Part shown: piece by piece, positions 10,382 through 33,200 of the stretch | Numbering within the stretch: position 1 is the stretch's first letter | How the letters are laid out: each line of letters opens with the position of its first letter | NCBI GenBank assembly: GCA_946625675.1 | Contig: CAMOTI010000084.1 | Span: 1-47,510 of the forward strand | DNA length: 47,510 nucleotides | Origin: an uncultured Prevotellaceae bacterium | GTDB lineage: Bacteria; Bacteroidota; Bacteroidia; Bacteroidales; Bacteroidaceae | Direction of reading: 5' to 3' | Position numbers and translations under genes: made by a program | The notes under the pieces: generated by a model | The model's input: the letters and a program-made list of their open reading frames with translations, nothing else | Told to the model about the DNA's origin: nothing | Databases searched by the model: none

Positions 10382-11641
10382 CTATCGTTTCACATAAATT
10401 GGGCAAGAAACGGAAATGCCGGTGTTGTGCGCTTTGAAGGCATGGGCGCGGACGTAGGCACCGAGGGCTATGTTGTTGAGTTTTGGGAAATGGTATTTGA
10501 GTCCGATGGTCTCGTAGAAGGGTTGCTCCACTTCGCAGGCTTTTTTTCCGTGCTGCCTGAAGACATAGAACCCAAAGGACATGGAGAGAGAGAGGTTGTG
10601 GTAGAAGACATCGTGCTTGCCTGAAATACCTATGGATATGGGTGAGTGACTCTTATGATAACCGTTGATTTTGTCGAGTTTCTTCACGCGGTCCATATAA
10701 GAAAGATAATAGACATCTATTCCGACCCCTGACGCCCATCTTCGCGCATATCGGCTCATGTAGTCGGCAGAGAGGGTGTATACAGCGTATTTCGAGAAAT
10801 TGTTTGAACGGTAGTCCGGGTCGTCCATAGGTGTTTTGAACTGTGTCTGCAGCCAGTCTTCATACAGCGTGCAAAAACCGACGTTTGCGGTGATGTTCCA
10901 GTATTTTGTCTTGTCGAAGGGAACCGTCTGTTTATATTGATCCTTCTTCAGGAGTTCGTCATAATAAGGATAATACACCAGTCCGAGGGTTGGTCCGATT
11001 GTGTTTGACCCTTTGTTCGGTCGTTTAAGCGTACCGGAGCTGTGGTGGTTGAACTCGATTCCCGCCTTGAGTCCCCAGTCTTTGGCAAAACGGTAGGTGG
11101 CGTGGAAGGCCGCACCGAAATAGATGGTCATGTGACTTGAAATCATAAGGTTGTCGGGGGAAGACGTCCTATTGTATTTTTTATTGGCGAATCCGAGTCC
11201 GATATTAAAAGCATAATCAGTCTCCCACCTGTAGTTTCGGAAGAAAGGCCGTTCGAATCCGGCATATACAGATAGTGCGTTTCCCAGTCTGGAATCAAAG
11301 TCTACAGGTTGTCCCAATCCGAGGTCTCCATCTGCATCGCGGTGTAGCTTGACATGGTTGTAGAGATTATAGTTGATTCCGGCATAGAACGTCGGGAATC
11401 CATAATCCTGGGCAAAGATGTCCTGGTCGCTTGGCAATGACACATGACGCAGTTGTGCAGAGAGCGTGACCGCCCCGTTTTGGCTGACCAGTTCCTTGAT
11501 TTGCGTGTCCATGGTAGGCACGACGCATGGATTAACCATCAGCTGTCCTCCCCAGTGCTTGATGGTGTCGTTGACTTCAGCAGAGACAGCAGTGAAAAAG
11601 AAACAGAAAAGAGCTAAAAAAAAGACCTTGGATTTATTCAT
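10382..11641 (-). CDS. Acyloxyacyl hydrolase / PagL-like lipid A 3-O-deacylase family outer membrane protein
   Basis: From MNKSKVFFLALFCFFFTAVSA (signal peptide). Beta-barrel-like strands and the PagL-type motif EFNHHSSGTLKRPNKGSNTIGPTLGLVYY. Confidence 0.7.
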   Translation of the reverse strand: MNKSKVFFLALFCFFFTAVSAEVNDTIKHWGGQLMVNPCVVPTMDTQIKELVSQNGAVTLSAQLRHVSLPSDQDIFAQDYGFPTFYAGINYNLYNHVKLHRDADGDLGLGQPVDFDSRLGNALSVYAGFERPFFRNYRWETDYAFNIGLGFANKKYNRTSSPDNLMISSHMTIYFGAAFHATYRFAKDWGLKAGIEFNHHSSGTLKRPNKGSNTIGPTLGLVYYPYYDELLKKDQYKQTVPFDKTKYWNITANVGFCTLYEDWLQTQFKTPMDDPDYRSNNFSKYAVYTLSADYMSRYARRWASGVGIDVYYLSYMDRVKKLDKINGYHKSHSPISIGISGKHDVFYHNLSLSMSFGFYVFRQHGKKACEVEQPFYETIGLKYHFPKLNNIALGAYVRAHAFKAHNTGISVSCPIYVKR

Positions 11642-12329
11642 GATTTTTAATGGCGATGACACAATGGAGGATCAGAGGAATGCCGTAAAGCAAAATAGCG
11701 AGGATCACAACAGGCTGAGGCCATTCCTGTCCTGGTATGAAATCGAGAAAAAAAGCATGCAGGATCATGGCTAAAAGCTGCGAAACGACAAAAAGAGTGA
11801 TGAAATAGTCAGCAATCCTCACTGGCAGGCTGACCGTGGCCTTCACGACATCGCTGACAGCATTGAACCTGCCGATGGAATAAGCATAAATGATTGATAG
11901 CAGATAAAGAATGAAAGCTATGATAGGGAACAATCCTCGCTGCAACGCCGAGTTGCTGAATGTGCCAAACGCGCTAAGAAGGATATTACCCGGAAGAAGC
12001 GAAAGAATGACAGCAAAAGTGATTAAAAATCCCAGGGCAGCAGCCACCAGCATATAAGCCCTCTTCTGTCTGAGGTATTTCTGCTTGGAAAATCCCGATA
12101 AGATGCCAGACTCGGCAATCATGCTCACCGTGGCAGCTCCCATGACCACATAATGCCATGGCGCCATACGGAAATTATACATAATCGTGGCCACCATCCA
12201 TCTCATCCCTTCGCTTGAAAGGATGTTTCTGCAGTTGGCTCCATAGACATTGGCAATCCATGATACGACAGCCGTAATGACGATAAGAGCCAACAAGATA
12301 ATGGGCAGCAAATAAAGAAATCGTCGCAA
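11634..12329 (-). CDS. Short multi-TM membrane protein resembling a truncated AbgT-family transporter
   Basis: 231 aa, about 6 TM. CRNILSSEGMRWMVATIMYNFRMAPWHYVVMGAATVSMIAESGIL resembles AbgT NLLSxEGLxWxxxxxxxNFxxFAPLGxxLxxxLGxGxAExxGLL. Overlaps the next start codon by 8 nt. Confidence 0.55.
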   Translation of the reverse strand: MRRFLYLLPIILLALIVITAVVSWIANVYGANCRNILSSEGMRWMVATIMYNFRMAPWHYVVMGAATVSMIAESGILSGFSKQKYLRQKRAYMLVAAALGFLITFAVILSLLPGNILLSAFGTFSNSALQRGLFPIIAFILYLLSIIYAYSIGRFNAVSDVVKATVSLPVRIADYFITLFVVSQLLAMILHAFFLDFIPGQEWPQPVVILAILLYGIPLILHCVIAIKNHE

Positions 12330-12409: not shown

Positions 12410-13135
12410 TTAATCGTCGTCAGGCTCAAGATTGTCGATGTCGATAATTCTGAGCTGTATCGCTCTCGTGACAAGTCTGGTGGCATTTACTCCATTGAGC
12501 CTTTCAGAATCAGAAAAGAGTCTGTTGATGAGGTCCATCTGCCGTTTTTCAAGCGACTTCACTCCGAAAGGCATGCCTCTGAGTTGCGCAATCATGTCCT
12601 TGGTGTATCCAAGAGCCAGGTGTCTGAGGAACCTCTCGTCGTACTCATCGATGTCGTAATCGACAAACGCCTCCTGCTTCCTGGACTCACTAAGCACCGA
12701 GCGGCGATATCTCTCCAGGATTTTCTCGAGGATAGGCTGATTGAACACGAGCCGTTTGCCGTCCATAACGCTTTGCACATCCCCTTTGGTAAGAAGCTCG
12801 CCACTTTTAAGAATGATTCCGTCGGCCCCTGCGTCCAGCACATCTACCCACAACTTCTCATTAAGCGTTTCGCCAGTAAAAATAAGCACATGCAAATCTT
12901 TGTATTGTTTTCTGAGTTTCCGGCAGATTTCCACTCCGATAGTTGTGGATCCTCCGAGTCCCAGATCCAGCAATACGAGGTCCGGCACTTGCTGTTTGAT
13001 CAGTTTCCAGAAATCCTCCTCATTCTGTGCAGTGCCGATGATTTCGGCCTGCGGGATGTCGTTTTTGAAAATTTCCTCAGTTCCTTTAAGTTCGAGTTTG
13101 ACATCCTCCACGATGATGACCTTGAATTTGTCCAT
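12410..13135 (-). CDS. Response regulator with divergent LuxR-like C-terminal domain
   Basis: Receiver motifs KVIIVEDVK, DLVLLDLGLGG, LIFTGE, GIILKSGELL. C-terminus FLRHLALGYTKDMIAQLRGM...NATRLVTRAIQLRII resembles a LuxR/NarL HTH. Confidence 0.85.
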   Translation of the reverse strand: MDKFKVIIVEDVKLELKGTEEIFKNDIPQAEIIGTAQNEEDFWKLIKQQVPDLVLLDLGLGGSTTIGVEICRKLRKQYKDLHVLIFTGETLNEKLWVDVLDAGADGIILKSGELLTKGDVQSVMDGKRLVFNQPILEKILERYRRSVLSESRKQEAFVDYDIDEYDERFLRHLALGYTKDMIAQLRGMPFGVKSLEKRQMDLINRLFSDSERLNGVNATRLVTRAIQLRIIDIDNLEPDDD

Positions 13136-13178: not shown

Positions 13179-16100
13179 CTAAGAATCAGCTTCAGATTGA
13201 AGTTGTGATGACTCTCTTGCAGCAGGAATGGTGAAACACAGTTGCAGTCCGTTTCCGTCATTGTCGAGTTGACAGGCATATATTCTGCATCCCCTCCTCA
13301 CGTGTTCGTCGTGCTCACGTATGATTTGCTTGGCGATGAGCATCTGTGCCCCGTTAAGCCTGTCGAGCTGAGGGTCGTATACCAGGGCTTCGGGATAGAA
13401 CATCGACTTGATTTCATCCTGCGACTTTTTGATGTTGTCGAAAGAAAATGCAAACTTAATAAATTCTTGTGACTTTTCAAAATTCAGCGTCAAAGTTCCT
13501 TTATTTTTTTGTAAATATAAAGCCTCAACAACATTTTCGATGAGATAGAAGAGCATAGTCTGGTCAGCGACCACCATCCATCCGTAAGACTCCGGCTTCG
13601 ACTGATGGACAAAATTCACTTCCGTATCATACTTCCTGGCATATTTTTTGACAGTCTTTTCGACGAACGCAGCCACCTCGGCAATCTTTATGTTTTTTCT
13701 TTTGAACATCGGGCGTTGTATTTGCTTGGCTGTACAGTCGGCAAGAATAGTGAAGATCTCCTTATAATAAGAAGTCAGTTCCGCCATTGAGTTCACATTG
13801 TCCTCCAAGAGCTCCGGATTATTCCAACATTCAGTCTTGCTGATGTTATCCACAATCTGCCGGATTCTGTTGGGATAATACATGGTTTCGTGCTTGATGG
13901 TTGACAATGTATTATCGATGACCAGGTTCTGCACATGTACGAGGTTCGCCTCTCTGTCGGCCCTTCTTTTCTCATCCTCAATAATCTCGATGTTGTCGTT
14001 GATGCTCTCCATCCTAACAGATGAATAGTAGATATTCTCAGCAGTGTACTTAGCGATATTGCGCAGCATCCGCTCATCGTTGTCGTTCAGATGGTCGCTA
14101 TAAAGCAGAAAGGCAATCACGCCAATGGTTGCGCCATTATCGATGTCGAGTGTGTAAATACGGGTCTTGCCATTGTCGAGTGTAAGATTCGCTTTCTTCT
14201 CGAATGCATCCTTGATGACAGACTCCAAATATTCTTGTTGCGGACAGTTTTCGGAGAAATAGATTTTGTCCTTCCCCATGCAGAGCACTACTCCATTGGT
14301 TCGTCTGACTTCGTTGACTCCCTGCCTTATGATTGTGGCCAGGCTTTTCTCGTCTTCGTTGTTGAAAATCCTGCGGTTCAACTCAAGAATCTGCCTCATG
14401 GCAAATGTGGGAAGGATATTGTTTTTGTAATAGATGAAATAATAGATGACCGCTCCAGTCAGGATTGCCGTGATGACAAGGAATAGAAGAGTTTTTCCGT
14501 TGCCGTTTGCCTGTTTTATCTCATTACATCTTGCATCGAGCTCCTTATCTTGAGATGAGTTCTTGTGCAGTCGGTTGAAAATTTCATTATTATAGAAATA
14601 AAGATTCCATTGCTTAAGTGCAAGTGCCGCAATAGCCACCTCGTTTCTCATCTGCATGATGGTCTGGTAGTCAGTGATAAATCCGTCGTTCCACCACTCC
14701 ACCTCAGCCATTGCCTTTTCATCATAAATCTTGATGATCTTTGTGCTGTCAGGGTTTTGCTTCATGTAGAACTTGTTGAGATGGAAAATGACGGAATCGG
14801 CCATTTGCAACGCAAATTGGTATTGCTGATTGACGTTGGCGTTGAAGAGGTCCTGCACGAAATAGTTGGCCATGATGACATCAGAATCATTCGGCTGAGC
14901 AGAAATCTTGGTGTGCACATCGTCGAGCTGACGCTTCTCATGATGGCAAGACGAGAAAAGCATAGGTAAAACAAGAGCAAGCATCATCAGCTTGTTTCTG
15001 ACAGTCCCTTTTGGAAGTCTGAAGAAAAACCGGCTTCCCTTTCCGATTTGGCTTTCTATTCCGAATTTGCAAACACTGAAAACGGAGTTGGTTTTCTTGT
15101 ACTTGTCGATAATGCCTTTGCAGTTGAGCAATCCGAATCCAAACCCCTTGTTTTTCTTCAGTTCCTCATCAGAGTCGGTATCACCGATTTTTGCAGAGTC
15201 ATACACTTTCTCTCCGAGTATGGTGTTCACGTCTTCCTGTGTCATTCCCCTGCCTTGGTCTTTCACCGACACCTCCACATAACCATCCTGTTCCTTCGCA
15301 TAAAGTTCCACCTCCCCACGATCGAACGAGTACTTTCTGGCATTTTCAAGGAGCGTGTTCATCATGAAGAGCGTGAGCGCCCTGTCCGCTTTCACGACAG
15401 AGTCGGTGTCCTGTATAATCAATTCAATCCCTTTCGCCTTGAACGACCTGAGATTGGTTTTGAGAATGTCGAAAAGAGGCATGAGAGGGAAATTCTCAAT
15501 ATTGAGCGACACCTCTCCCTGCCTTATCTTGATCCATGATGAGAGGATATCGTTGTAGACATTGATGCGCTCAATCAGTTCAGCGACATAATTGAGCCTG
15601 CGCTCAACCAGTGGTCTGACATCCAGAATCATCTGTTCCTGTTGCGCTTTTCCTCCGCTATCTTTCGCCCCGTTGATGTCCTCTCTGATTTTCCTGACCT
15701 CATTGACCGCCCTGTCGAGGAAAGGAGTGATGGCATAAACGATGGCCAGGCATGTAGCCTTGTTGATGTATTGCCGTTTCTGCTCGTCGAGCCTTTTCTC
15801 CTTGCTTATTCTCTCAGCCATGGCCATTTCCTGATGTTCTTCCAGATTAGAGAAGTCGAGGTCGGTCTTTTCTCTCCATCTGACCATTTCCTGCTCCATG
15901 CTCTTCTGCTCTTGCATGAAATTTCTGAGATAGTTGTTTTTCACCTTCCTTGTGAGATATACGAGAGCGAAAGCGAAGAGGGTAAGAAAGACGGCAGCAA
16001 AAATCATATATCGGTTGACGTCGGCCTGTTCCTTTTGGAGTGTGGCAAGAATCTGTTCCATTCTTTTGTCCTGCCGGGTGATGTCCCTGATATCCAGGAA

Positions 16101-17375
16101 TATGTTTCTATTATAGTCGGACTGAGCCTTCAGCCCCATGGCACTATAGACGATGCAGAAATGTTCCCTGATGTCGGCCATCCACTCAGGGAGGCAGACT
16201 ACTGAATCAGCAATCCATTTCATTTCAGTGGAGTTAAACTCAGCCTTGCCTTTCTCCACAAGCGCCTTTCTCTGCAATTCGAATTGGGCAAACTGTGCGG
16301 AGTCCGGATATGCATACAGCACGTCATTGTCGTTGCTCACCCTCTTGTGATGAATGTTGACACAATCGAGCGCACTCTGCATGGCACCAAGGGCCTTCTC
16401 GTTATCTCCGGCCGCGATATAGAAATCAGCGATGGTGTTATAGGTCTGCGCCACATCGAACAGCGATCCGTAATTCTGGAAAATGTCGAGGGCGAAAAGA
16501 CAAATGTCGAGTGGCAGTGATTTGTCGTCGGCCGAATCCGGCTGTTCGATGATTTCCTTGATGAGATTAATTCGGCTCGGCCTGTATTCCTTCTGTTTGA
16601 TAAGGTCTTCCGCTACAGAGGTAAGCGATTTCGCGAGTATGTAATTCAGGTTGTTAGCTTTAGCCTCCGTTGCCGCCTCAAGGAGGTTGGATGTGTTGTC
16701 TTCCGTAAGCCTGTTGTCCACGTTCTTCGCATTACCGAAGAGGAAGAAGAACATCAGTCTTTGCTGCGCGTCCTCCTCGACAATACGATAGTTGTCCATA
16801 ATGAATTTCATCTCAGCATCCCCGTCCTCCTCTTGTCGTAGATAATAGTAATAGACATATAAAGTGAGATGGAACTCAGAAACAGCAAAATTCCATATTC
16901 TTGTCTGTCGTTGGTTCATGGAAGAAACCTCAGGCCTGATACGGTCCATTTTCCGCAATGCATCATTGTAGTAGTCGTAGAAAGCCTTGTTGACCGACCT
17001 TCTTTGGCATATTTTCATCATAATTACATCCGCCACCAGCCTGTACAGTTCATTGGTGGAGTAATCCAACACATTCTTGAGACATACACTGGCTGAATCA
17101 TAGTCCATGGTCATATACTTGGCAAATCCGATGTGGCAGAGAGCCTCATCCCTTCCATCGTTGTATCCATAAGATTTCTCGTGTATATCCAGCGCCTTCT
17201 CCGCGTAGTAGACGACGGAGTCCGCCTTGACGTAGTATGCCTTGTACGCCTTATCGTTGAGTTGGTCGATTGCCTCTTTTTCCTCATCAGAGAGCTTCTG
17301 ACACGCCACACAAGCCATCAAAGTCAAGAAAGTGAAGCAAATAAACCGTAAAAACACATTGTCCGCCATAGCCAT
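13179..17375 (-). CDS. Two-module membrane sensor histidine kinase-like protein
   Basis: N-terminal lipoprotein-like signal (MAMADNVFLRFICFTFLTLMACVACQ), TPR-like helical sensor, TM (YMIFAAVFLTLFAFALVYL), HATPase with N/G1/G2 boxes (FMMNTLLENARKYS, VKDQGRGM, KGFGFGLLNCKG). In-frame second module with hydrophobic/lipobox segment (KLMMLALVLPMLFSSCHH), second TM (LLFLVITAILTGAVIYYFIYY) and H-box-like STIKHETMYYPNRIRQIV. ATG at 17375, 4 nt after the upstream stop; ORF track extends to 17429. Confidence 0.85.
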   Translation of the reverse strand: MAMADNVFLRFICFTFLTLMACVACQKLSDEEKEAIDQLNDKAYKAYYVKADSVVYYAEKALDIHEKSYGYNDGRDEALCHIGFAKYMTMDYDSASVCLKNVLDYSTNELYRLVADVIMMKICQRRSVNKAFYDYYNDALRKMDRIRPEVSSMNQRQTRIWNFAVSEFHLTLYVYYYYLRQEEDGDAEMKFIMDNYRIVEEDAQQRLMFFFLFGNAKNVDNRLTEDNTSNLLEAATEAKANNLNYILAKSLTSVAEDLIKQKEYRPSRINLIKEIIEQPDSADDKSLPLDICLFALDIFQNYGSLFDVAQTYNTIADFYIAAGDNEKALGAMQSALDCVNIHHKRVSNDNDVLYAYPDSAQFAQFELQRKALVEKGKAEFNSTEMKWIADSVVCLPEWMADIREHFCIVYSAMGLKAQSDYNRNIFLDIRDITRQDKRMEQILATLQKEQADVNRYMIFAAVFLTLFAFALVYLTRKVKNNYLRNFMQEQKSMEQEMVRWREKTDLDFSNLEEHQEMAMAERISKEKRLDEQKRQYINKATCLAIVYAITPFLDRAVNEVRKIREDINGAKDSGGKAQQEQMILDVRPLVERRLNYVAELIERINVYNDILSSWIKIRQGEVSLNIENFPLMPLFDILKTNLRSFKAKGIELIIQDTDSVVKADRALTLFMMNTLLENARKYSFDRGEVELYAKEQDGYVEVSVKDQGRGMTQEDVNTILGEKVYDSAKIGDTDSDEELKKNKGFGFGLLNCKGIIDKYKKTNSVFSVCKFGIESQIGKGSRFFFRLPKGTVRNKLMMLALVLPMLFSSCHHEKRQLDDVHTKISAQPNDSDVIMANYFVQDLFNANVNQQYQFALQMADSVIFHLNKFYMKQNPDSTKIIKIYDEKAMAEVEWWNDGFITDYQTIMQMRNEVAIAALALKQWNLYFYNNEIFNRLHKNSSQDKELDARCNEIKQANGNGKTLLFLVITAILTGAVIYYFIYYKNNILPTFAMRQILELNRRIFNNEDEKSLATIIRQGVNEVRRTNGVVLCMGKDKIYFSENCPQQEYLESVIKDAFEKKANLTLDNGKTRIYTLDIDNGATIGVIAFLLYSDHLNDNDERMLRNIAKYTAENIYYSSVRMESINDNIEIIEDEKRRADREANLVHVQNLVIDNTLSTIKHETMYYPNRIRQIVDNISKTECWNNPELLEDNVNSMAELTSYYKEIFTILADCTAKQIQRPMFKRKNIKIAEVAAFVEKTVKKYARKYDTEVNFVHQSKPESYGWMVVADQTMLFYLIENVVEALYLQKNKGTLTLNFEKSQEFIKFAFSFDNIKKSQDEIKSMFYPEALVYDPQLDRLNGAQMLIAKQIIREHDEHVRRGCRIYACQLDNDGNGLQLCFTIPAARESSQLQSEADS

Positions 17376-17379
17376 TCCT

Positions 17380-18246
17380 TTACTTGAGATTTTCCGCCTT
17401 CTTAAATTCAAGAGGTCCCAATCCCACATGCGTTTTAAACCACTTTCCGAAATAGGACTGGTTGGGGAAATTCATGACCTCAGCAATCTCCTTGACAGTG
17501 AGGTTGGACTCGGTAATGAATTTTTTTGCCTCTTTAACCAGAATAGATGTGATCCACTGTGAAGGAGTCTGTCCCGTGCGTTGCTTAACCACGGAAGAGA
17601 AATATCTCATAGAAATATACTGCCTATTGGAATAAAACGACACCTCATGCTGTGTGAGGTAGTGTTCTTTAAGGTCGTTAAGGAACTTTCTGACAATATC
17701 GTCCCTTCTGTCGACAGAGTTTTTGAGCCCATTGTCGGCATCGGCATAAGCCATGATAATTTGCAAGACCAGATTTAACTTGACATTTTCGATTTGTAGG
17801 TTGTTGAGCTGCCAGAATCGTCTTTGGTTGTTGTCGGCAAAGAGTTTTGACAGTTCGAGATGCTTTTGGTAAAGTTCGATGTAGTTTTTGAGAGAGGTGA
17901 GATCATGTTCCGACAAATCCGTGAGAGGATTCTGCCTGATATACAGAATTGAGTCGACATCAGTGATCCTGGTAAGCAGAGGCTGCACGACATTGACATC
18001 AACGGACATCATGATTCCATATAAGTCCTCAGAAGCATCAATGATTTTCAGAATGGAATAAGGAAAATAAACGACAATATTGTTTTTTTTCATCTCATAC
18101 TTGGTGTCATCAAGAAAAAAAGTGACATTTCCATTGAGACAGATAAACATACCGCTTAGAGCAAATCTGAGCGGTTCGGCTTCTGGCATAAAGCCCTCGT
18201 TTTTATTTCCAGAAATAATTCTATATACGACGTTGTCCTGGGGCAT
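17380..18246 (-). CDS. AraC family transcriptional regulator
   Basis: 288 aa. C-terminal HTH KEAKKFITESNLTVKEIAEVMNFPNQSYFGKWFKTHVGLGPLEFKK; N-terminal cupin-like domain. Confidence 0.92.
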   Translation of the reverse strand: MPQDNVVYRIISGNKNEGFMPEAEPLRFALSGMFICLNGNVTFFLDDTKYEMKKNNIVVYFPYSILKIIDASEDLYGIMMSVDVNVVQPLLTRITDVDSILYIRQNPLTDLSEHDLTSLKNYIELYQKHLELSKLFADNNQRRFWQLNNLQIENVKLNLVLQIIMAYADADNGLKNSVDRRDDIVRKFLNDLKEHYLTQHEVSFYSNRQYISMRYFSSVVKQRTGQTPSQWITSILVKEAKKFITESNLTVKEIAEVMNFPNQSYFGKWFKTHVGLGPLEFKKAENLK

Positions 18247-18592: not shown

Positions 18593-19705
18593 ATGAGAAT
18601 AAAGCAAATCGCATGGGCAATGCCAAGACGCGTCAGGAGCAATCTTTTCTTCATGCTCTGCATGCTCATGCCGCTGACGCTGTTAAGTTGCCATGAAGAA
18701 AAGGTGAGCAAGAAATCTCCCCAATACGTAAAGACAACGACTGCAGAGTCGACAGGAGAAGAAAGTCTGATCAGCTACCCAGGAAAGACGAAGGCCGCCG
18801 ACGTGGTGAGTCCTTCATTCAAGGTGAGCGGTACCTTGTCGAGAATATACGTGAAAGAAGGCGACCATGTGAGGAAAGGTCAGCTGATAGCAGAGCTTGA
18901 CGCCCACGACTATGACGTTCAGCTACGCGCCACAGAAGCCGAATACGCTCAGATAAAAGCAGATGCTGAGCGTGTGATTTCCATGTATAATGAAGGTACA
19001 ACGACCGCATCTAACTACGACAAAGCCCGTTACGGTCTTCAACAGATTGAGGAGAAATTATCGCATCACCGCGATCAGGTGAAATACTGCAAACTGTATT
19101 CTCCGATTGACGGATATGTGCAGAGCAAGAACCACGACGTAGGCGAGAACGTAGGTGCAGGCATGTCGGTATTGTCACTGTTTTCGTCCTCTAACATAGA
19201 GATAGAGATATTCATTCCCGGATCGGACTACAGCCGTCGCAGCGACATGCTCCGTGCGATATGCACTTTTGACGTGATGCCCGACAACATTTATTCCCTT
19301 GACATCTCGCGAATGAGCAAAGAAGCCAACGCAAGCCAACTTTATATGGTCCGCCTGAGTTTCAAGCCCGGTGCCGACATCAAGCGTATTACCCCCGGAA
19401 TGACAACGATGGTATATATAAGCTATGTGAAAGGAGTAAGTCAAGGCACAGTGATAATCCCCTCTTCATGCATCCTTCGCAGCAAAGGGCGCTCCCTGGT
19501 TTACGTTTACGACAAGAGTTCCAGCACAGTCCAGCCTCGCGTGGTTGAGACAGGAAACCTTGACACCCGCGGCAATATAGAAGTGACCTCAGGCCTGTCG
19601 GCAGGCGAGACAGTGGTGTCGGCAGGCGTGAGATTTCTCAAGCCAGGCGAGCGCGTTAAGGAAGCCGACAAAACCTCCCCGTCGAACAAAGGCAAACTTT
19701 TGTAG
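18593..19705 (+). CDS. RND efflux periplasmic adaptor subunit (HlyD/MFP family), lipoprotein
   Basis: 370 aa. Lipobox LTLLSCHEE; SGTLSRIYVKEGDHVRKGQLIAELDAHDYDVQL and C-terminal VTSGLSAGETVVSAGVRFLKPGERV. Confidence 0.93.
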   Translation: MRIKQIAWAMPRRVRSNLFFMLCMLMPLTLLSCHEEKVSKKSPQYVKTTTAESTGEESLISYPGKTKAADVVSPSFKVSGTLSRIYVKEGDHVRKGQLIAELDAHDYDVQLRATEAEYAQIKADAERVISMYNEGTTTASNYDKARYGLQQIEEKLSHHRDQVKYCKLYSPIDGYVQSKNHDVGENVGAGMSVLSLFSSSNIEIEIFIPGSDYSRRSDMLRAICTFDVMPDNIYSLDISRMSKEANASQLYMVRLSFKPGADIKRITPGMTTMVYISYVKGVSQGTVIIPSSCILRSKGRSLVYVYDKSSSTVQPRVVETGNLDTRGNIEVTSGLSAGETVVSAGVRFLKPGERVKEADKTSPSNKGKLL

Positions 19706-19749
19706 ACAGAGAGAAAAAATCAAAATGAAATTCCGCAACAAACGACACG

Positions 19750-22700
19750 ATGGCAAACATAGATTTTTCGAATTGGGCATTAAACAACCGTAAACTGATT
19801 AACTTTTTCATCATCTGCCTTGTGATTGGCGGTGTCATGAGTTTTTATGACATGCCAAAGCTGGAGGATCCGGAGCTGAAAGTGAAGCAGGCCATGGTTG
19901 TGACCACCTATCCAGGCGCTTCAGCCCACGAAGTGGAGCTGGAGGTGACCGACAAAATCGAGAAGAGCATCCGTGAGATGCGATCGATATATACGATAGA
20001 GAGCCAGTCGATGAACGACTTGAGCATTATCTCAGTGGAGCTCAACAAGACCCTTCCCGACGCAGAAGTAGAGCAAGAATGGGATATGCTCCGGCGTAAA
20101 GTAGAGAATGCCTCCCATTCCCTCCCCTCCGGTGCAAGCAATCCGATAGTGAGGGATGATTTCGGCGATGTTTACGGTATGTTTTATAGTCTGACAGGAG
20201 ACGGTCTGAGCAATATAGAGATGTCGGACTATGCAGAGTTAGCCAAACGCAACATAAGCGACATAGAAGGCGTTGCCCGCTGCGACATCTACGGTGTGAA
20301 AGAAGAGTGCATCTACGTAGACATGAAGCAGGAGAAGATGGCAAACCTGGGCGTAATGCCCACAGAAGTGCTTCAGACCCTAAACAGCCAGAACAAAACC
20401 GCATACAGCGGCTACTTCAATAACGGCGGCAACCGCATCCGTATTCAGGTGGCGGACAAGTTCAAGACAGTGGACGACATCGGGATGATGCTTATCCAGG
20501 GCCATGATAACGACCAGCTTCGCATCCACGACATTGCCAAAGTGTACAAAGCTTATGCCACCCCAACACGCAATGAGATGTACCGTGACGGTAATCCCGC
20601 TTTAGGCATATCCATTGCCTGCATCGGGAGTTACGACGTGGTGAAAGTGGGCAAAAAAGTAGACGAAGTCATCAAGTCCTTGCAGTCCCGCATGCCCGTT
20701 GGCGTGAAGTTCGAGAAAATATTCAATCAGCCCGAACGCGTAAACGCTGCCATCTCCACATTCCTTGTCAACTTGGCAGAATCCGTCCTGATTGTGATTA
20801 TCGTGTTGATATTCACGATGGGTTTCAAGTCAGGATTGATAATCGGTATCAGCTTGGTAACGATTGTGTTAGGCTCGCTCGTTGTACTGAGTGGCTTTGA
20901 CGGCACCTTGCAGCGAGTTTCGTTAGGAGCCTTCATCATAGCCATGGGAATGTTGGTGGACAACGCGATAGTCATCGTCGACGGCATCCTGATTGACCTA
21001 CAGAACGGAATGCCCAAGCGTGAAGCCCTATGTAACATAGCACGCAAGACGAGCATGCCGTTGCTGGGTGCCACCATCATCGCAATACTTGCTTTCTGGC
21101 CCATATTCCTGAGTCCGGACAGCGCCGGCGTGTATGTCCGCGACTTGTTTATCGTGATTGCCGTGTCACTGTTCCTGTCCTGGATACTGGCATTGATTCA
21201 GGTACCTCTGATGGCAGACCGGATGCTCCGGAGTCCCGAAGAGGAGGCCGCTGCCAAAGAGCGAAAAGAAGCGAAGAAAAGGCTTAAGAACAAACACAAG
21301 ACTGAAGATTCAGCCTCATCCCTACAAGCCACATCCACAGTCGCTCCAGGATCGTCTGAAATATCAAAATCGGAACAAGCCAACGTGGAGACACCTGCGC
21401 AAAAAAATTCCTATGGCGGCTTCACCTACCGGCTGTTGGAAAAGATTCTGAGACTCGGCATCCGCTTCCGTTATGTCGCCATTGCCATCGCCATCGGACT
21501 GCTTGCTTTCTGTGGCTGGTGCTACCAATATCTGAATCAAGCCTTCTTCCCCGACATGGAGTATGACCAACTATATATGGAATACAAGCTCCCCGAAGGC
21601 GTGAACTCCACCCAAGTGAATAAGGACCTGACAGAAATAGAGGCTCTGCTCCGAAAAGACAAGAATATCACCCATATCACACGCAGTATAGGTGGAACTC
21701 CCAGCCGTTACAATTTGGTGAGGAGCATCGCCACACCTTCGTTATCGTACGGAGAGTTGATCATCGACTTTAAGAGTCCCGAGGCACTGGTACACGACAT
21801 GGACAGCCTTCAGACTGTTTTGAATTCCCTCTATCCTGACGCATACATCAAGCTGAAGCGATACAACCTGATGTTCAAGAAATATCCGATAGAGGCTTGT
21901 TTCCATGGTCCCGACCCAGCAGTGCTTCATGTGCTTTGCGACTCCGCGTTGAGCATCATCCGTAACAGCAAGACATGCTATCTTCCGACCTCAGACTGGA
22001 GTCCTCAGGTCCCAGTGCTGGACATCAAATACGACCAGTCGAGCGCGCGCACCAGCGGTCTGAGCCGCAGTGACGTGGCCACCTCGGTGATGGCGTATAC
22101 GGGCGGCATACCTATTGGCACTTTTTATGATGGCATCAACCGCAAGAGTATCTACCTGAAATGTACAGACGCAGAAGGAAACGACATCAGCCGTCTGGAG
22201 AACGTGGCCGTATTCGGCCTGATGCCCAACTTGCAGAAGGTGATGAACCGCTCCACCATTCAAAAACTGATAAGTGGGAAGCAGACCAAAGGAGAGGTGA
22301 TCGAGACACTAATGCAAAGCACGCCATTGCGTCAAGTGGCCAAAAGCATCGACATCGTTTGGGACGAGCCAGTGGTGATGCGCTTCAACGGCCAGCGTTC
22401 GATGCGTGCTCAATGCTCTCCCGTACCAGGCGTGGGCACCGAGGCAGCCCGTAGAGAAATCGCTGAAAAGATCGAGGCCATAGAGCTGCCAGCAGGCTAC
22501 AGCCTGTCATGGGAAGGCGAGAAGCGCGCGAGCGACGACTCGATGAAATACCTGTTTGCCAACTTCCCGCTCGCCATCCTGCTGATGATCGTGATACTCA
22601 TCATCCTGTTCAAGGACTACAAAAAGCCGTTGATGATATTCTGCTGCGTCCCGCTTATCGTGATCGGCGTAATACCGACCATCGCCCTGACCGGCAAGCC

Positions 22701-23097
22701 CTTCGGCTTCGTGGCCATCATCGGCGTCTTAGGCCTGATAGGTATGATGATCAAAAACGGCATCGTGCTGATGGATGAAATCGAATTGCAAATCAACAAT
22801 GGTGTGACACCGATGCGCGCCCTGATAGACAGTTCGAAGAGCCGCCTTCGTCCTGTGATGATGGCCTCATTGACCACCATACTGGGTATGATTCCCTTGA
22901 TACCCGACGCATTGTTTGGGTCGTTGGCAGTGACGATTATGGGCGGATTGTTTATGGGCACCGTCATCACACTGATATTCATCCCGATCCTGTATGCCAC
23001 ATTCTTCGGTCTGAAGACCAAAGAAAAGGAGATAGACGACCTGTATGAAAAGATGGAGCCAGAGGCAATCGCACAGGAAGACGAGCAGAAAGACTAA
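19750..23097 (+). CDS. RND efflux transporter permease (AcrB/HAE-like)
   Basis: 1115 aa, 12-TM architecture: VVTTYPGASAHEVELEVTDKIE, GMLVDNAIVIVDGI, KPFGFVAIIGVLGLIGMMIKNGIVLMDEI, SRLRPVMMASLTTILGMIPL. Confidence 0.95.
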   Translation: MANIDFSNWALNNRKLINFFIICLVIGGVMSFYDMPKLEDPELKVKQAMVVTTYPGASAHEVELEVTDKIEKSIREMRSIYTIESQSMNDLSIISVELNKTLPDAEVEQEWDMLRRKVENASHSLPSGASNPIVRDDFGDVYGMFYSLTGDGLSNIEMSDYAELAKRNISDIEGVARCDIYGVKEECIYVDMKQEKMANLGVMPTEVLQTLNSQNKTAYSGYFNNGGNRIRIQVADKFKTVDDIGMMLIQGHDNDQLRIHDIAKVYKAYATPTRNEMYRDGNPALGISIACIGSYDVVKVGKKVDEVIKSLQSRMPVGVKFEKIFNQPERVNAAISTFLVNLAESVLIVIIVLIFTMGFKSGLIIGISLVTIVLGSLVVLSGFDGTLQRVSLGAFIIAMGMLVDNAIVIVDGILIDLQNGMPKREALCNIARKTSMPLLGATIIAILAFWPIFLSPDSAGVYVRDLFIVIAVSLFLSWILALIQVPLMADRMLRSPEEEAAAKERKEAKKRLKNKHKTEDSASSLQATSTVAPGSSEISKSEQANVETPAQKNSYGGFTYRLLEKILRLGIRFRYVAIAIAIGLLAFCGWCYQYLNQAFFPDMEYDQLYMEYKLPEGVNSTQVNKDLTEIEALLRKDKNITHITRSIGGTPSRYNLVRSIATPSLSYGELIIDFKSPEALVHDMDSLQTVLNSLYPDAYIKLKRYNLMFKKYPIEACFHGPDPAVLHVLCDSALSIIRNSKTCYLPTSDWSPQVPVLDIKYDQSSARTSGLSRSDVATSVMAYTGGIPIGTFYDGINRKSIYLKCTDAEGNDISRLENVAVFGLMPNLQKVMNRSTIQKLISGKQTKGEVIETLMQSTPLRQVAKSIDIVWDEPVVMRFNGQRSMRAQCSPVPGVGTEAARREIAEKIEAIELPAGYSLSWEGEKRASDDSMKYLFANFPLAILLMIVILIILFKDYKKPLMIFCCVPLIVIGVIPTIALTGKPFGFVAIIGVLGLIGMMIKNGIVLMDEIELQINNGVTPMRALIDSSKSRLRPVMMASLTTILGMIPLIPDALFGSLAVTIMGGLFMGTVITLIFIPILYATFFGLKTKEKEIDDLYEKMEPEAIAQEDEQKD

Positions 23098-26411: not shown

Positions 26412-29400
26412 TTATTGTCCTGCAATGATGTTGATGATGGCCACAATGTCGGAGATGTCTACCTTAGTGTCACCGTTCACATCAGCGAAGCGATACTCGG
26501 CAGTACCTGCAATCTGGTTGATGACAGCCACGATGTCAGAAATGTCCACCTTGGTGTCCTCGTTGACGTCGCCAGCAATATTCTTCACCGGTCCGAGATA
26601 GAAGAGCTGGAAGTCGTCGAACATACACCAGTCGCCTCCGATAGTCGTGTTCTTGTAAAGACCGAAGTTGATGCTTCCACCTTCCTTGATTACAGTGCTG
26701 ACCTCGTTGAGATAGGCATTGTTGTCGTTGGCGAAACGAGCAGCTGCACCTCTCATGGAGTTAGGATAGAAATAGCGCTCGCTTCCATCGTCGAACCAAG
26801 AATCGTATATCCATGCATCGTTAGCATCTACAGCTGAGATGTTTCCGTCAGTGTCAAACTGTTCTTTGTACGAAACAGCCGTGTAAGTAACGTTTCCGTC
26901 TTCGTCTACATTCTCCGTTTCTTCAAGCCATGCATTGAGAGTCTGGTTTTCCTCACCCAGCTCAGCAGCCGGGTTGACAGCATCGAATGTGTACTGCGTG
27001 TATGAACGCTCAGTGAAGATAGCATCCTCGTTGCAGAGAGAAACCACATCTTTCTCGTTGCTGTTTGCGAAGAACTTCACATTCGGCGTGAAGTTGGCAT
27101 CGAACCAAACATGCTCATAAGCTGCATTGAAGTTGCCGTCACGATAGAACGATTTCACTTTCACAGTGTACAGACCAGCCGGGAGAGAATACAGTGTCTG
27201 TTCGATTCTGAAGTTCGTGTTGTAAGCCTCAGAATTCTGAAGGCCGTTGTCGGTACTGAAATTACCGGTCCATCCCTTCTGTCCCTCAGTGAACGACGGG
27301 TTGACGATGAGAGCGGTGATGTCAACCGGATTGTCCTCCGACGCCTTGTCCATACCGAGTTCAGCCATGATGGTCTGGTTGTAGTACACAGCAAGTTCCT
27401 TTTCGTACTCAACCAACTTGTCTGCCTTGGCAAATTCAGCGATGAGAGCCTGTGCCTGCTCCTGAATCTTGGCCTGCAGCTCTTCGTTGTTGACTGATGA
27501 ATAAGACTCGACGATTCCCACATATTTCACGTATTCGTTGTAGTCGTTCACACAGTCCATGATATCCTTATAAGTGGCCGTCTCCTGGTTGTAGAGTTCG
27601 AATGTGTAACCCACAGCTGTGTCAAGATACTGGCTTTGGTTTGTATCGGGCTCATACTTGGCTTGGAGTTCTGAGAACATAGCAGTCACGTCATGGCTGT
27701 TAAGGTATCCGTTCGCCTCATTGATATAGTTCTGAGCCTCTTCGATAGTAGATAGTGCAGCGGCATAGGCATCATATCCCTGAACCGGCATTTTCACGTT
27801 CTCAAGCATCTTCTGTACTGCGTCACGGTCGCCCTGCAGCATGAGTTCATCGAGTTTGATGGTGATTTCATCAAGTTTCTTCTGAGTGAGTTTTGAGAAA
27901 TCAGGATTCTCACCATAATAGAGAAGCTGCATACCCGTGAAAGAGCTGAATCCGTTGGCGAAGAAAGCAACACGTGCAGTACCGTTCGTTACCTGGATCA
28001 TGTCTGTAGAATAGTAAGTCCAGTCGTCGAGGCTGTAGTTCCACCAACCCGAGAGTCTGGTTTCCTCCTGAGACTGAGCGAAGTTGTCGCCCGACTGAAT
28101 TCTGATACCCATCTTGCAGTTTCCGTTCCAGTCGTTAGACCAAGTGATACCACAACCCTTGATGCTGTAGAATCCGTTCTGCAGTCCGGTGAGGTTCTGA
28201 GCGATTTCACGCTCGTCACCAGGCAAACTCCACTGTTTAGCACTTGAGAGCTTGTGGTTCCAGTAAGGCTCATATCCTCCGGTATTCACTTGATACCAAG
28301 CATTGGTGACAGTCTCGTCCGTTCCGATAGTGACACCCTTTCCGATAGGAATACGAGTAGTGGTCTGATATGTTTTGTTGTCGCCGTCGCCAGACTCACC
28401 GAGATCAGCCCATCCGAGCAATCCGTTTTCTCCGTTGAGCACTCTTTCCTGCGGCACCCATCTGTTTTCAGCCTCATTCCATTCAGGATTGTATTCAGGC
28501 TGGCAGAAGAACGGATAAGCGATGAGATTAGTCAGGTCGAGCACACCGTCCTCATTAGGCTTAGTGACAAGATAAGCCGCTCTGGCCTGCTGAAGCTCCT
28601 TCAGAGCCACACCGTAGTCAGCGCCGGACTTCGTGTACACACCCGTTCCGTCAGCTCCGAACTCATCAGTTTCCACATTCTTTGCATTCTGGATGGCAGT
28701 CTTGAATTCCGGCAGTCCGCTATAATCCGTAGTGTTAGCCAGATCGTCGCAAGATGCGATTAACGACGACAAAGCTTTTGCGTCGTTGAGATACACCTTA
28801 TATTCCGTAACGAGCTGGTCGAGTTTTTGCGTAGCCTGCTCGTACTCCTCAACAGAAGTGTAGCCGTCAGACTCCTCCTCAATTTCAGCGAAGATGTTTT
28901 CATAATAATAAAGCAGAGAAGAATAGCCGGCAATCGCGATTTCCTCACGGAATTCATCCACGAGGTTCATCTTGTTCTGGAAATCCTCCTTTGCAATGTC
29001 CACAAGCACCCCCTCCGAAGCCTCACCGAGATATGTAGCTGTAAAGTTGGAGAAGATGCACCAGTCATTAGCAAGAGTGGCGGTTTTGCGCACACCAATT
29101 CTGAAATAGCCGTCTTCCTTTTGAACGACTTTGATAGAATTGCCTAAATAGAGTCCGGCATCAAACCATCTTCTGGTTCCCTCCATACTGTTAGGAACAT
29201 AATAATGTGTATCATTGTAAATATACTCAATGTCATCAGGCCAGTTATTTGTGGTACCCAGGAATCTTCCATCTGTGTATTCAGAAGAAGCGATACTTAT
29301 GAGAGGAGCAGAGGTTTCCCTTGTAACCTCCGTGACCTTAAGTGCGTCGTCAACATTGACAGACTCACCAAAGAAAACAGCGTTGATCTTCTCGGATTTT

Positions 29401-29708
29401 TCCCAGTAGGGCCTTTGGTAGTCTCCACGATAGAATCCCTGAACAGAGAACTGGTAGTATCCAGCCGGGAGGAAAAATGTTTGTGACAACTGTGCATTTT
29501 TAGGCTGGTTGAACATCTCCCAGGACTGCCAGTCGTATGCACCTCCTCCATTTTCAAAGATCCACACACCGGCGTCGTTGGACTGTCCGGAATAATCCTG
29601 CCATTCCAACTGGTCGGAAACGTCATCTCCTTCTTTCCAGTCATTCTGAGCGAAAGCAGAAGAGAACGTCAATCCCGCCAAAGCGACGAAAGTAAAAATT
29701 TTTTTCAT
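26412..29708 (-). CDS. Large secreted protein with repeated beta-sandwich-like modules and C-terminal dockerin type I repeats
   Basis: 1098 aa. Signal peptide MKKIFTFVALAGLTFSSAFAQ; C-terminus DVNEDTKVDISDIVAVINQIAG...DVNGDTKVDISDIVAIINIIAGQ; N- and C-terminal modules share LPAGxYxxxVxxFYR, PNSMxG, DWCxFxxFxxxYLG. Confidence 0.85.
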   Translation of the reverse strand: MKKIFTFVALAGLTFSSAFAQNDWKEGDDVSDQLEWQDYSGQSNDAGVWIFENGGGAYDWQSWEMFNQPKNAQLSQTFFLPAGYYQFSVQGFYRGDYQRPYWEKSEKINAVFFGESVNVDDALKVTEVTRETSAPLISIASSEYTDGRFLGTTNNWPDDIEYIYNDTHYYVPNSMEGTRRWFDAGLYLGNSIKVVQKEDGYFRIGVRKTATLANDWCIFSNFTATYLGEASEGVLVDIAKEDFQNKMNLVDEFREEIAIAGYSSLLYYYENIFAEIEEESDGYTSVEEYEQATQKLDQLVTEYKVYLNDAKALSSLIASCDDLANTTDYSGLPEFKTAIQNAKNVETDEFGADGTGVYTKSGADYGVALKELQQARAAYLVTKPNEDGVLDLTNLIAYPFFCQPEYNPEWNEAENRWVPQERVLNGENGLLGWADLGESGDGDNKTYQTTTRIPIGKGVTIGTDETVTNAWYQVNTGGYEPYWNHKLSSAKQWSLPGDEREIAQNLTGLQNGFYSIKGCGITWSNDWNGNCKMGIRIQSGDNFAQSQEETRLSGWWNYSLDDWTYYSTDMIQVTNGTARVAFFANGFSSFTGMQLLYYGENPDFSKLTQKKLDEITIKLDELMLQGDRDAVQKMLENVKMPVQGYDAYAAALSTIEEAQNYINEANGYLNSHDVTAMFSELQAKYEPDTNQSQYLDTAVGYTFELYNQETATYKDIMDCVNDYNEYVKYVGIVESYSSVNNEELQAKIQEQAQALIAEFAKADKLVEYEKELAVYYNQTIMAELGMDKASEDNPVDITALIVNPSFTEGQKGWTGNFSTDNGLQNSEAYNTNFRIEQTLYSLPAGLYTVKVKSFYRDGNFNAAYEHVWFDANFTPNVKFFANSNEKDVVSLCNEDAIFTERSYTQYTFDAVNPAAELGEENQTLNAWLEETENVDEDGNVTYTAVSYKEQFDTDGNISAVDANDAWIYDSWFDDGSERYFYPNSMRGAAARFANDNNAYLNEVSTVIKEGGSINFGLYKNTTIGGDWCMFDDFQLFYLGPVKNIAGDVNEDTKVDISDIVAVINQIAGTAEYRFADVNGDTKVDISDIVAIINIIAGQ

Positions 29709-29995: not shown

Positions 29996-30245
29996 CAAAC
30001 CAAACTAACTAACACAATTATAAAAAAACTACTAACGTTCGATTTTGATGTTGCAAAGTTAGCATGATAAACTTAAAAAAGCTATATGAAATGATTCTTG
30101 AAATGCAGATTTTGAAACCGAATGTTGCAAAACAACAAAATCTAAAATGAATGTATCAAATCTAACATTTTTTTATGCTAATTCTATGTTCAAAGAATAA
30201 AAAAAATCTCTAAATTTGCATAAAAATAAACCAAACTACCGAAAA

Positions 30246-33200
30246 ATGGCAAAAAAACTCATTATTCTTCTATTAATTTTCCACATTTGTAACATTGCGG
30301 AATGCCAGCCACCACATTTGTACACCATGCAACAAGGGCTGAAAAGTTCGTATATTGATAATTTATACGTTGACAGTGCAAATTTTGTGTGGGTATGCAC
30401 AACAAACTCCCTTGAAGTGTTCGACGGCTACCGTTTTGAAGACATCAGTTTTACTGACAAGAAAAGCGGTAAACAATTATTTAATAAGGTGAGCAGTGTC
30501 CGCCAGATAGACAAGACCCACTATTGGATACAAAGCAATATCGGACTGTTTGTGTATGACCTCGAAGACAACAGCTACGAGAAAGTGCAATTATCAGAAA
30601 CAGAAGAAGACTTGGTGAACAAAGGTTCGCTGAATCACAGCGTGCCCTACCCGGGCGGAAAGAAAACGTTGTTCTCCAGTGAAGGATTCGGCTTGTTTGT
30701 CATAGAAAACGCCACCCATCAGGTGGACAGTGTACTGTCGATGAAGCTGAACGGTCTTGTAGGCGAGTCATACATATGGAATATACTGATAGACCAGAAG
30801 AAGCGTCTATGGGTTTCCGATTTGCGAAACGAGATAACAGTAATAAACCTGTCGAACGATCAGAAACTTCAGCTTGAAGTGAGTGAATCCGCGCGGAAGA
30901 TTATGTCGAACAGCTATGTGACCAGTTTCTGTGAGGACAATAAAAACAATAAAATTTACATGTCGATGTCTCACAACGGCGTGTTGGTGTTTGACGGAAA
31001 GAGCAACACGATACGAGAGTTGAAAAACAACGACCACAGCCTTTATGGCAACTGCCTGGTACAAACCCCTTCAGGCGATTTGTTTTTAGGCACAGACAAT
31101 GCCGGCATCTATCAGATAGACAGTTCGGACGAAAGCATCCATTCTCTGAACAACCAAATAGAAGACATAGACCTTCAGAAGGCCAAAATCCACTCATTAG
31201 CCGTAGACAAAGACGAAAATCTGATTATAGGCATTTATCAGAGAGGCGTCATGGTGATCACCAAGCCAAATGGTTATTTCAAGTACACCGCATTGTCGCT
31301 GAATTCCAACGGAAAGAACAGTTCTTGCGTAACGTCCTTCTGTACAGACCGTTCCGGCAATCTATGGGTCGGCACAGACGGCTCAGGCCTGTTTGTGAAC
31401 GGCGAGAACCGGAAAGACGGCCTTCAGTCACTTCTGATCCAGTCGGTGGTATGCGACAAAGAAGGCACGATATGGTGTGGTTCATGGCGTGGTGGCATCT
31501 GCTGCAGCAAAGACGGCAATCACTTTTTTGTCCCCGAGTTCCTGTCCGGATACACCAACAGCAATATCATGGACATGGCTTATGACAGCGCAAGCCACAA
31601 ACTCTACGCAGGCACAAACGGCGAGGGCGTACTTTGTATAGACTTGTCGAGCAACAATGTGAAAAAGATAAACGGCAGCGACGTGTACCGTTGGATCAAC
31701 AAGTTATACCTTGACAAAGATGGTGACCTATGGATAGGCGACCCCATCAACCTGTTTCAATACCACCCGATAAGCGACCAATATGTCCAAATACGTCTCA
31801 ACGACAAAGACATCAACCTGATACACGGTTTCGGCGAGAACGGCACCCACCTGCTTTTGGGAACTGATGACGGTCTGATTTGCTACGACAGGAAAGAGAA
31901 GAAGGTGGTAACACCAGACTATCTTTCAGAAGTTCAGTCAAATATACCGATAAAGAACATCGTTGTAGATAAAAAATATATCTGGATATCAGCCAGCAAC
32001 AAAATCATCTGCGTTGATAAAGAAAGCGGGCGGACAATAGAATACGAAAGTTTCAGTGGCTATTATATCGGTGAATTCCATCGTAATGCCAGCATTCTTC
32101 GTCCAGACGGCAGCATATGCTTCGGTGGCGACAATGGATACTTGAGTTTTCACCCCAGCCAGCTCATGAGTCTGGGCACAAACATCAAGCAGGTGTATTT
32201 CTCCCCCATATGGCTGGGCAAGCAACTGGATGGGAGCAATTCCTACCATATATCGTTCAGTGTGCCCGAACTATCGATGAAAGACAGGGTGTGCTATCGC
32301 TACAAGCTCGAGGGTTACGAGAAAAACTGGCATGTCACAGACTCTTCAACTCCAGAAGCCTACTATGCAAGTCTTCCCTCCGGCAGCTATACCTTCCATG
32401 TTCAAGCCTATTTCCGTGACACCCCGGACAAGTTTACGGAGCAGACACTGGAAATACACGTACCCTATCCCTGGTATGCCACTTGGTGGGCCTATTTACT
32501 TTATGCCGGCATACTATGGTATATAGGCTACATCATCTATCAGAACATCCAAGAACGCCGTCGTGCCCGTAAGATGCTACGAGAGGCAGAAGCGAAGGAG
32601 CGCGTGAAAGAAGACAAGCTTCGTCTGTTCACAAGCATCGCCCACGAATTGCGTTCTCCTCTGACCATGATCATGTCCCCCCTTCGTCAGCTTGCCACCA
32701 GCGACCGCAATTTGGAGCGTCAGGGCAATTACTCGATTATGCAACGAAACTGCAACCGCCTGCTTCGCATCGTGAACCAGATGCTTGACGTAAGGAAAAT
32801 CGAGAACGGACAATTCCATCTTCACTTCAGCGAGACAGAGCTGAACACATACACGCGAGAGGTGATGGAATCGTTTAAAGGAGTGGCAGCCGCCAAAGCG
32901 CTGACCTTCACGCATGAGTCAAAGGAAGAATCGATACCCGTATGGATAGACACGGTTCATTTTGAAAAGGTGCTGTTCAACCTCTTGTCGAACGCGTTCA
33001 AATACACCCCTTCCAATGGGCGAATCATCGTGCGTACAAGCTGTCAGCTGAACAACCCCGACACAGAAAGCCATCGGATGATAGACGATTACAGGGTGAT
33101 AGAATATGCGGAGATCCGCGTGTACAACAGCGGTAGCCATTTAAATGCAGAGGATTTGCGTCACATCTGGGAACGGTTCTATCAGAGCAGCAGTCAGCCG

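Follow-up and report, generated by a model that had tools for sequence, protein, structure and literature searches.

A putative split histidine kinase arranged as two complementary half-kinase modules in one reading frame

The nearest precedent for the arrangement described here is the CheA3/CheA4 pair of Rhodobacter sphaeroides, for which split-kinase chemistry has been proven biochemically: the kinase (ATPase) function and the phosphorylatable His are located on two units that work only together (PMC3591291). CheA3 and CheA4 are cytoplasmic, are encoded by separate genes, and have lost whole domains, whereas the half-kinases described below retain the whole fold, are paralogous and membrane-bound, and share one frame. 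Two kinase supradomains in one polypeptide are known from TodS, in which a receiver lies between them and a transmembrane (TM) region is absent; the relay of TodS uses His190, Asp500, and His760 (PMC4861429). The tandem half-kinase resembles TodS in having two kinase modules in one chain but differs from it in lacking a module 1 His and, according to its Pfam architecture, an internal receiver, and it is therefore not of the TodS type. DivL has a histidine-kinase fold without a phosphoacceptor His and serves as a partner that acts on a separate kinase; in the present case, by contrast, the His-bearing partner lies in the same frame.

The window, the whole stretch of 47,510 nucleotides that was analysed, contains an intact open frame of 1416 codons on the minus strand (13179–17429), which was identified by Pfam and profile comparison as a sensor kinase of the DUF5112/DUF5113 type, built from two paralogous modules (Table 1). 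The first-pass annotation had placed the start of the gene at 17375, and this is indeed the first plausible ATG, with the open frame itself reaching 17429. Pfam assigned DUF5112, two DUF5113 stretches, and a single HATPase_c to the frame; the suggested DUF5112 and DUF5113 families were recovered far above their cut-offs (PF17139, 172.2 bits versus 29.4; PF17140, 201.5 versus 27.1), and the genome-level DUF5112 match had coordinates identical to those of the match in the frame. For comparison, we used a set of 121 distinct homologous sequences, corresponding to 59 clusters at 60% identity. The column of the lipobox residue Cys43 contains C in 114 of these 121 sequences and a gap in 5, and the lipobox makes the protein a probable lipidated histidine kinase. 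GAF families were matched in 8/78 members, and the GAF-like segment is missing from the shortest homologues (L058, L061, and L062).

Table 1 Features of the tandem half-kinase gene and the adjoining genes.
Feature	Residues	Position	Strand	Evidence
Tandem half-kinase gene, DUF5112-DUF5113-kinase module 1 + DUF5113-kinase module 2		13179..17375	-	
N-terminal signal sequence with lipobox Cys43	19-43	17301..17375	-	
DUF5112, TPR-like periplasmic sensor	54-318	16476..17270	-	Pfam PF17139, E=1.9e-50
DUF5113 copy 1		15957..16472	-	PF17140, E=8.4e-28
TM helix, module 1, out to in	474-494	15948..16010	-	Sequence; family core median 20
Helix 1 of the module 1 DHp, lacking the phosphoacceptor His	556-575	15705..15764	-	
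Module 1 HATPase_c, intact	689-807	15009..15365	-	PF02518, E=9.4e-16
Module 1 ATP-site boxes: N-box; G1; G2		15333-15359; 15243-15260; 15129-15146	-	
Module junction RLPKGTVRNKLMMLALVLPMLFSSC, internal signal-peptide-like, lipobox Cys828	804-828	14946..15020	-	
DUF5113 copy 2	853-1001	14427..14873	-	PF17140
TM helix, module 2	989-1010	14400..14465	-	Sequence; family core median 22
GAF-like cytoplasmic domain	approx. 1028-1113	14091..14348	-	AF2 secondary structure
DHp helical hairpin of module 2, with His1180 (codon 13890-13892) as candidate phosphoacceptor		13716..14084	-	
Module 2 degenerate ATPase domain	approx. 1245-1404	13218..13697	-	
Cognate response regulator, receiver + DUF5932		12410..13135	-	Pfam
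Small membrane protein (function unknown), the cluster's third gene in many relatives		11634..12329	-	

In agreement with the initial description, the ATP site of module 1 is complete: the N-box LLENARKYS (residues 691–699), G1 box DQGRGM (724–729), and G2 box GFGFGL (762–767) are all intact (HATPase_c, E=9e-16), and N696, K699, D724, G726, G728, G764, and G766 are invariant in 121/121 homologues. The same module was correctly described as lacking the H-box His. Its helix IVYAITPFLDR has Val564 (codon 15738–15740) at this site, five residues before P569, and the homologues have Val (113 sequences), Ala (5), or Ile, Met, or Leu (1 each) at the corresponding position, never His. A His is found somewhere within the helix 1 stretch in 18/121 sequences, at shifting positions that include residue 565 (5 sequences) and residue 568 directly before the Pro (about 11); neither is conserved, and a check of all 121 homologues found module 1 to be without a conserved phosphoacceptor His.

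Module 2 shows the complementary state. Residues H1180 and E1181 of the H-box-like helix noted at first reading are present in STIKHETMYYPNRI, and H1180, E1181, Y1185, and P1186 (KHExxYYP) are invariant in 121/121 homologues, with H1180 being the sole invariant His of the protein in an alignment of 25 diverse sequences. The helix is not a standard HisKA H-box, however, given that the Pro follows the His at +6 rather than +5 and that Pfam yielded no HisKA-type match in either module. The search did detect HisKA in another kinase of the same window and genome, an ordinary hybrid two-component regulator (30216–34367, plus strand; Reg_prop, HisKA, HATPase_c, receiver, and AraC) that has HisKA and HATPase_c in one module. 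The orthodox HisKA combination of His-Glu/Asp with a Pro at +5 is thus found in neither module of the tandem protein. Because of the Pro spacing of 6 and the lack of a HisKA match, the role of H1180 as candidate acceptor rests on its invariance and its position in the predicted fold. Module 2 also lacks the classical HE/DxxN/T phosphatase residue and has a Tyr at +4.

The ATPase region next to this His was described in the first-pass annotation as having an N-box-like LIENVVEAL and no recognisable DxGxG or GxG box. The former assignment did not hold up, since LIENVVEAL is out of register: in the profile alignment, N696 of module 1 aligns with E1302, and N1299 lies three residues early. The latter was upheld, the window's module 2 having no ATP-binding motif that could be recognised. 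Across the homologues, a DxGxG was found in 0/121 module 2 sequences, the G1 Asp is kept in 94/121, and a GxG is present in the G2 region of 8. Module 2 has thus mostly lost the G1 glycines, the N-box Asn (present in 17/121), and the G2 loop, and no complete ATP site was found in it among the 121 homologues. HATPase_c was detectable by Pfam in module 2 of 66/78 homologues, whereas the window's own module 2 gave no match. The degenerate domain nevertheless has a conserved motif of its own (R1371 in 120/121, H1373 in 116/121, G1380 in 120/121, and C1381 in 116/121), and it has therefore probably been repurposed rather than being in decay.

The two modules have a common domain order and are paralogous end to end, with the alignment spanning DUF5113 through the last ATPase strand (profile-profile probability 99.8, E=1e-27, 436 columns). 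This match indicates, at the level of sequence, an origin by tandem duplication followed by complementary loss. AF2 modelled the cytoplasmic part of module 2 as a GAF-like domain followed by a DHp hairpin and then an ATPase fold (mean pLDDT 90.7), and the best Foldseek matches of this model include the histidine kinases WalK, HK853, and DivL (probability 1.00), with the DivL-type structure 4q20 among them. A 962-residue AF2 model covering both modules, which represents a monomer and not a dimer, had a mean pLDDT of 86.2 and a pTM of 0.60. In the AF2 prediction, about 70 residues of helix separate DHp 1 from the module 1 TM helix above it, and only a few residues lie between the end of the module 1 ATPase domain and the hydrophobic junction that links the modules.

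The complementary pattern of an ATP site in module 1 and a His-Glu pair in module 2 was held in 121/121 homologues and is therefore not attributable to chance; none of the 121 had two complete modules. A cognate response regulator directly follows the kinase in 115/117 loci with enough sequence (62–86% identity). Its receiver is canonical, with E10, D11, and D57 conserved in 134/135 sequences (one gap) and T87 and K110 in 135/135. The DUF5932 part of the regulator (12410–12745, minus strand) looks like a divergent LuxR-type HTH, with NarL-like models matching beyond the receiver, and was confined to the window's bacterial family in the samples searched. Behind the regulator, an ORF 25–43% identical to the small membrane protein was found in 72 loci.

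Several other genes surround this cluster. A PagL-like lipid A deacylase or outer-membrane barrel (10382–11662, minus strand) is located downstream. An AraC-type regulator gene (17380–18246, minus strand) stops 5 bp short of the kinase start codon, with an AraC relative found near the kinase only in a few genomes (L070, L072, and L097, and weakly L058). Divergent from the AraC gene are RND-type efflux genes (18593–23097, plus strand), a periplasmic adaptor and a pump by sequence reading. Farther away, a protein of 1098 amino acids (26412–29708, minus strand) carries a COOH-terminal dockerin type I domain, which is unusual for a gut Bacteroidales genome.

Given that the complementary pattern is conserved over 59 clusters, phosphorylation across the two modules is the best reading of these data, and we consider it likely that the frame encodes a split histidine kinase formed as a tandem duplication, with the ATPase site and the candidate acceptor His on different units. 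An ancestral kinase consisting of a periplasmic DUF5113, a TM helix, a DHp, and an ATPase domain would have been duplicated in tandem, and the copies would have divided the chemistry between them. The ATPase domain of module 1 would phosphorylate His1180 of module 2, and the adjacent receiver-DUF5932 regulator would then receive the phosphate on its Asp57. The two halves would probably be forced to cooperate in this manner. The reaction would need to be permitted by both periplasmic sensor parts, which would make the pair an obligate coincidence device. Counted against such a mechanism are the nonconserved His near the module 1 site in a few homologues and an awkward geometry, with the module 1 ATPase near the junction and DHp 1 far below the TM helix. 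Cross-module phosphorylation on one polypeptide had already been proposed in the first-pass annotation; the phosphorylation part of that proposal has been strengthened by the breadth of the pattern and was contradicted by none of the checks, whereas the single polypeptide has become uncertain given that the junction looks like a cleavable signal peptide.

The last module 1 ATPase strand (RLPKG) is followed directly by the junction, in which basic residues lead into a short hydrophobic core and then a site of the lipobox or AxA type. The charged n-region has the consensus RLPKGxRK, and the lipobox in the window is FSSC. As judged by regular expressions, a lipobox or strict AxA site was present at the junction in 40/59 clusters, compared with 8/59 and 5/59 at control TM helices (Fisher p=2e-9 and 2e-11, respectively), and the median length of the hydrophobic core was 16, versus 20 for TM2 and 22 for TM4. 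These features suggest that the junction is an internal signal-peptide-like segment, at which the chain may be cleaved into two parts. Tethering by the junction would hold the module 1 ATPase close to the membrane unless it is released. An internal translation start was also considered for this site but was unsupported, since no ATG is universal there: an ATG falls within the tested stretch in 66/121 homologues, and the commonest codon at the residue after KG is GTG (45/121).

Because the fused frame is conserved along with the signal features, cleavage into two half-kinases is possible. The most serious alternative is a polyprotein, in which signal peptidase I or II would cut one precursor at the junction and the half-kinases, released in a 1:1 ratio, would come together again as an obligate two-sensor heteromeric kinase. 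This alternative is compatible with the chemistry of the split kinase and differs from it in the state of the chain. The charged n-region, the short core, and the frequency of the site all speak for it, as does the alternation of lipobox and AxA among clades, which is as seen in ordinary signal peptides. An internal signal of this kind is the cleavage site in Bradyrhizobium FbcH (cytochrome b/c1). On the other hand, a cut would leave module 1 with a signal tail, a clear junction site is missing from some members, and the fusion was never seen resolved into two genes, with a true split of the modules being found in neither the family nor the genus samples. One apparent split, in genome G585 (frames of 511 and 717 amino acids on different contigs), was rejected as an assembly break because both frames reach contig ends. 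We therefore regard the polyprotein as possible but doubtful.

Each module might instead pair with a copy of itself or with another kinase, such that module 1 phosphorylates a separate partner and module 2 only transfers phosphate to, or removes it from, the regulator. Hetero-oligomeric kinases are known, and the catalytic role of module 2 is not fixed, given its missing phosphatase residue, but the complementary losses sit in one frame in every homologue, so that an outside partner is unnecessary, and the regulator adjoins the kinase gene in nearly all loci, all of which renders this arrangement improbable. A nonphosphorylating system, with a mechanical ATPase cycle in module 1 and a structural role for H1180, would fit the unusual H-box and the missing HisKA match but is the least credible proposal in view of the invariant His-Glu pair and the canonical receiver (D57, T87, K110) encoded next to the kinase.

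Among the genomes sampled from the window's bacterial family, DUF5113 was present in 97/121; in samples of single genera, it was present in 10/13 genomes of the window's own genus and in 73/80 and 18/19 genomes of two others. Both copies usually lie within a single frame of about 1000–1540 amino acids, and do so without exception in the homologues examined that do not lie at contig ends. Most of the family members sampled carry the kinase, usually as a single gene, and its named carriers include Phocaeicola vulgatus, Bacteroides pyogenes, and B. finegoldii. A search for ancestors outside the family, in class- and order-level samples, gave only weak single matches, with PF17140 and PF19355 being nearly confined to the family, and DUF5112 matches outside it were mostly short and partial.

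None of the papers searched names DUF5112, DUF5113, or DUF5932, and our analysis suggests functions for all three. The tandem half-kinase and its regulator represent a conserved, apparently unstudied signalling system in a bacterial family to which Bacteroides, Phocaeicola, and further gut bacteria belong. Cleavage at the junction, if it occurs, would make the system a rare bacterial signalling polyprotein. If the proposed mechanism is true, it would offer a naturally occurring pair that cross-phosphorylates at a fixed stoichiometry and whose one-way phosphorylation is open to single-mutation tests.
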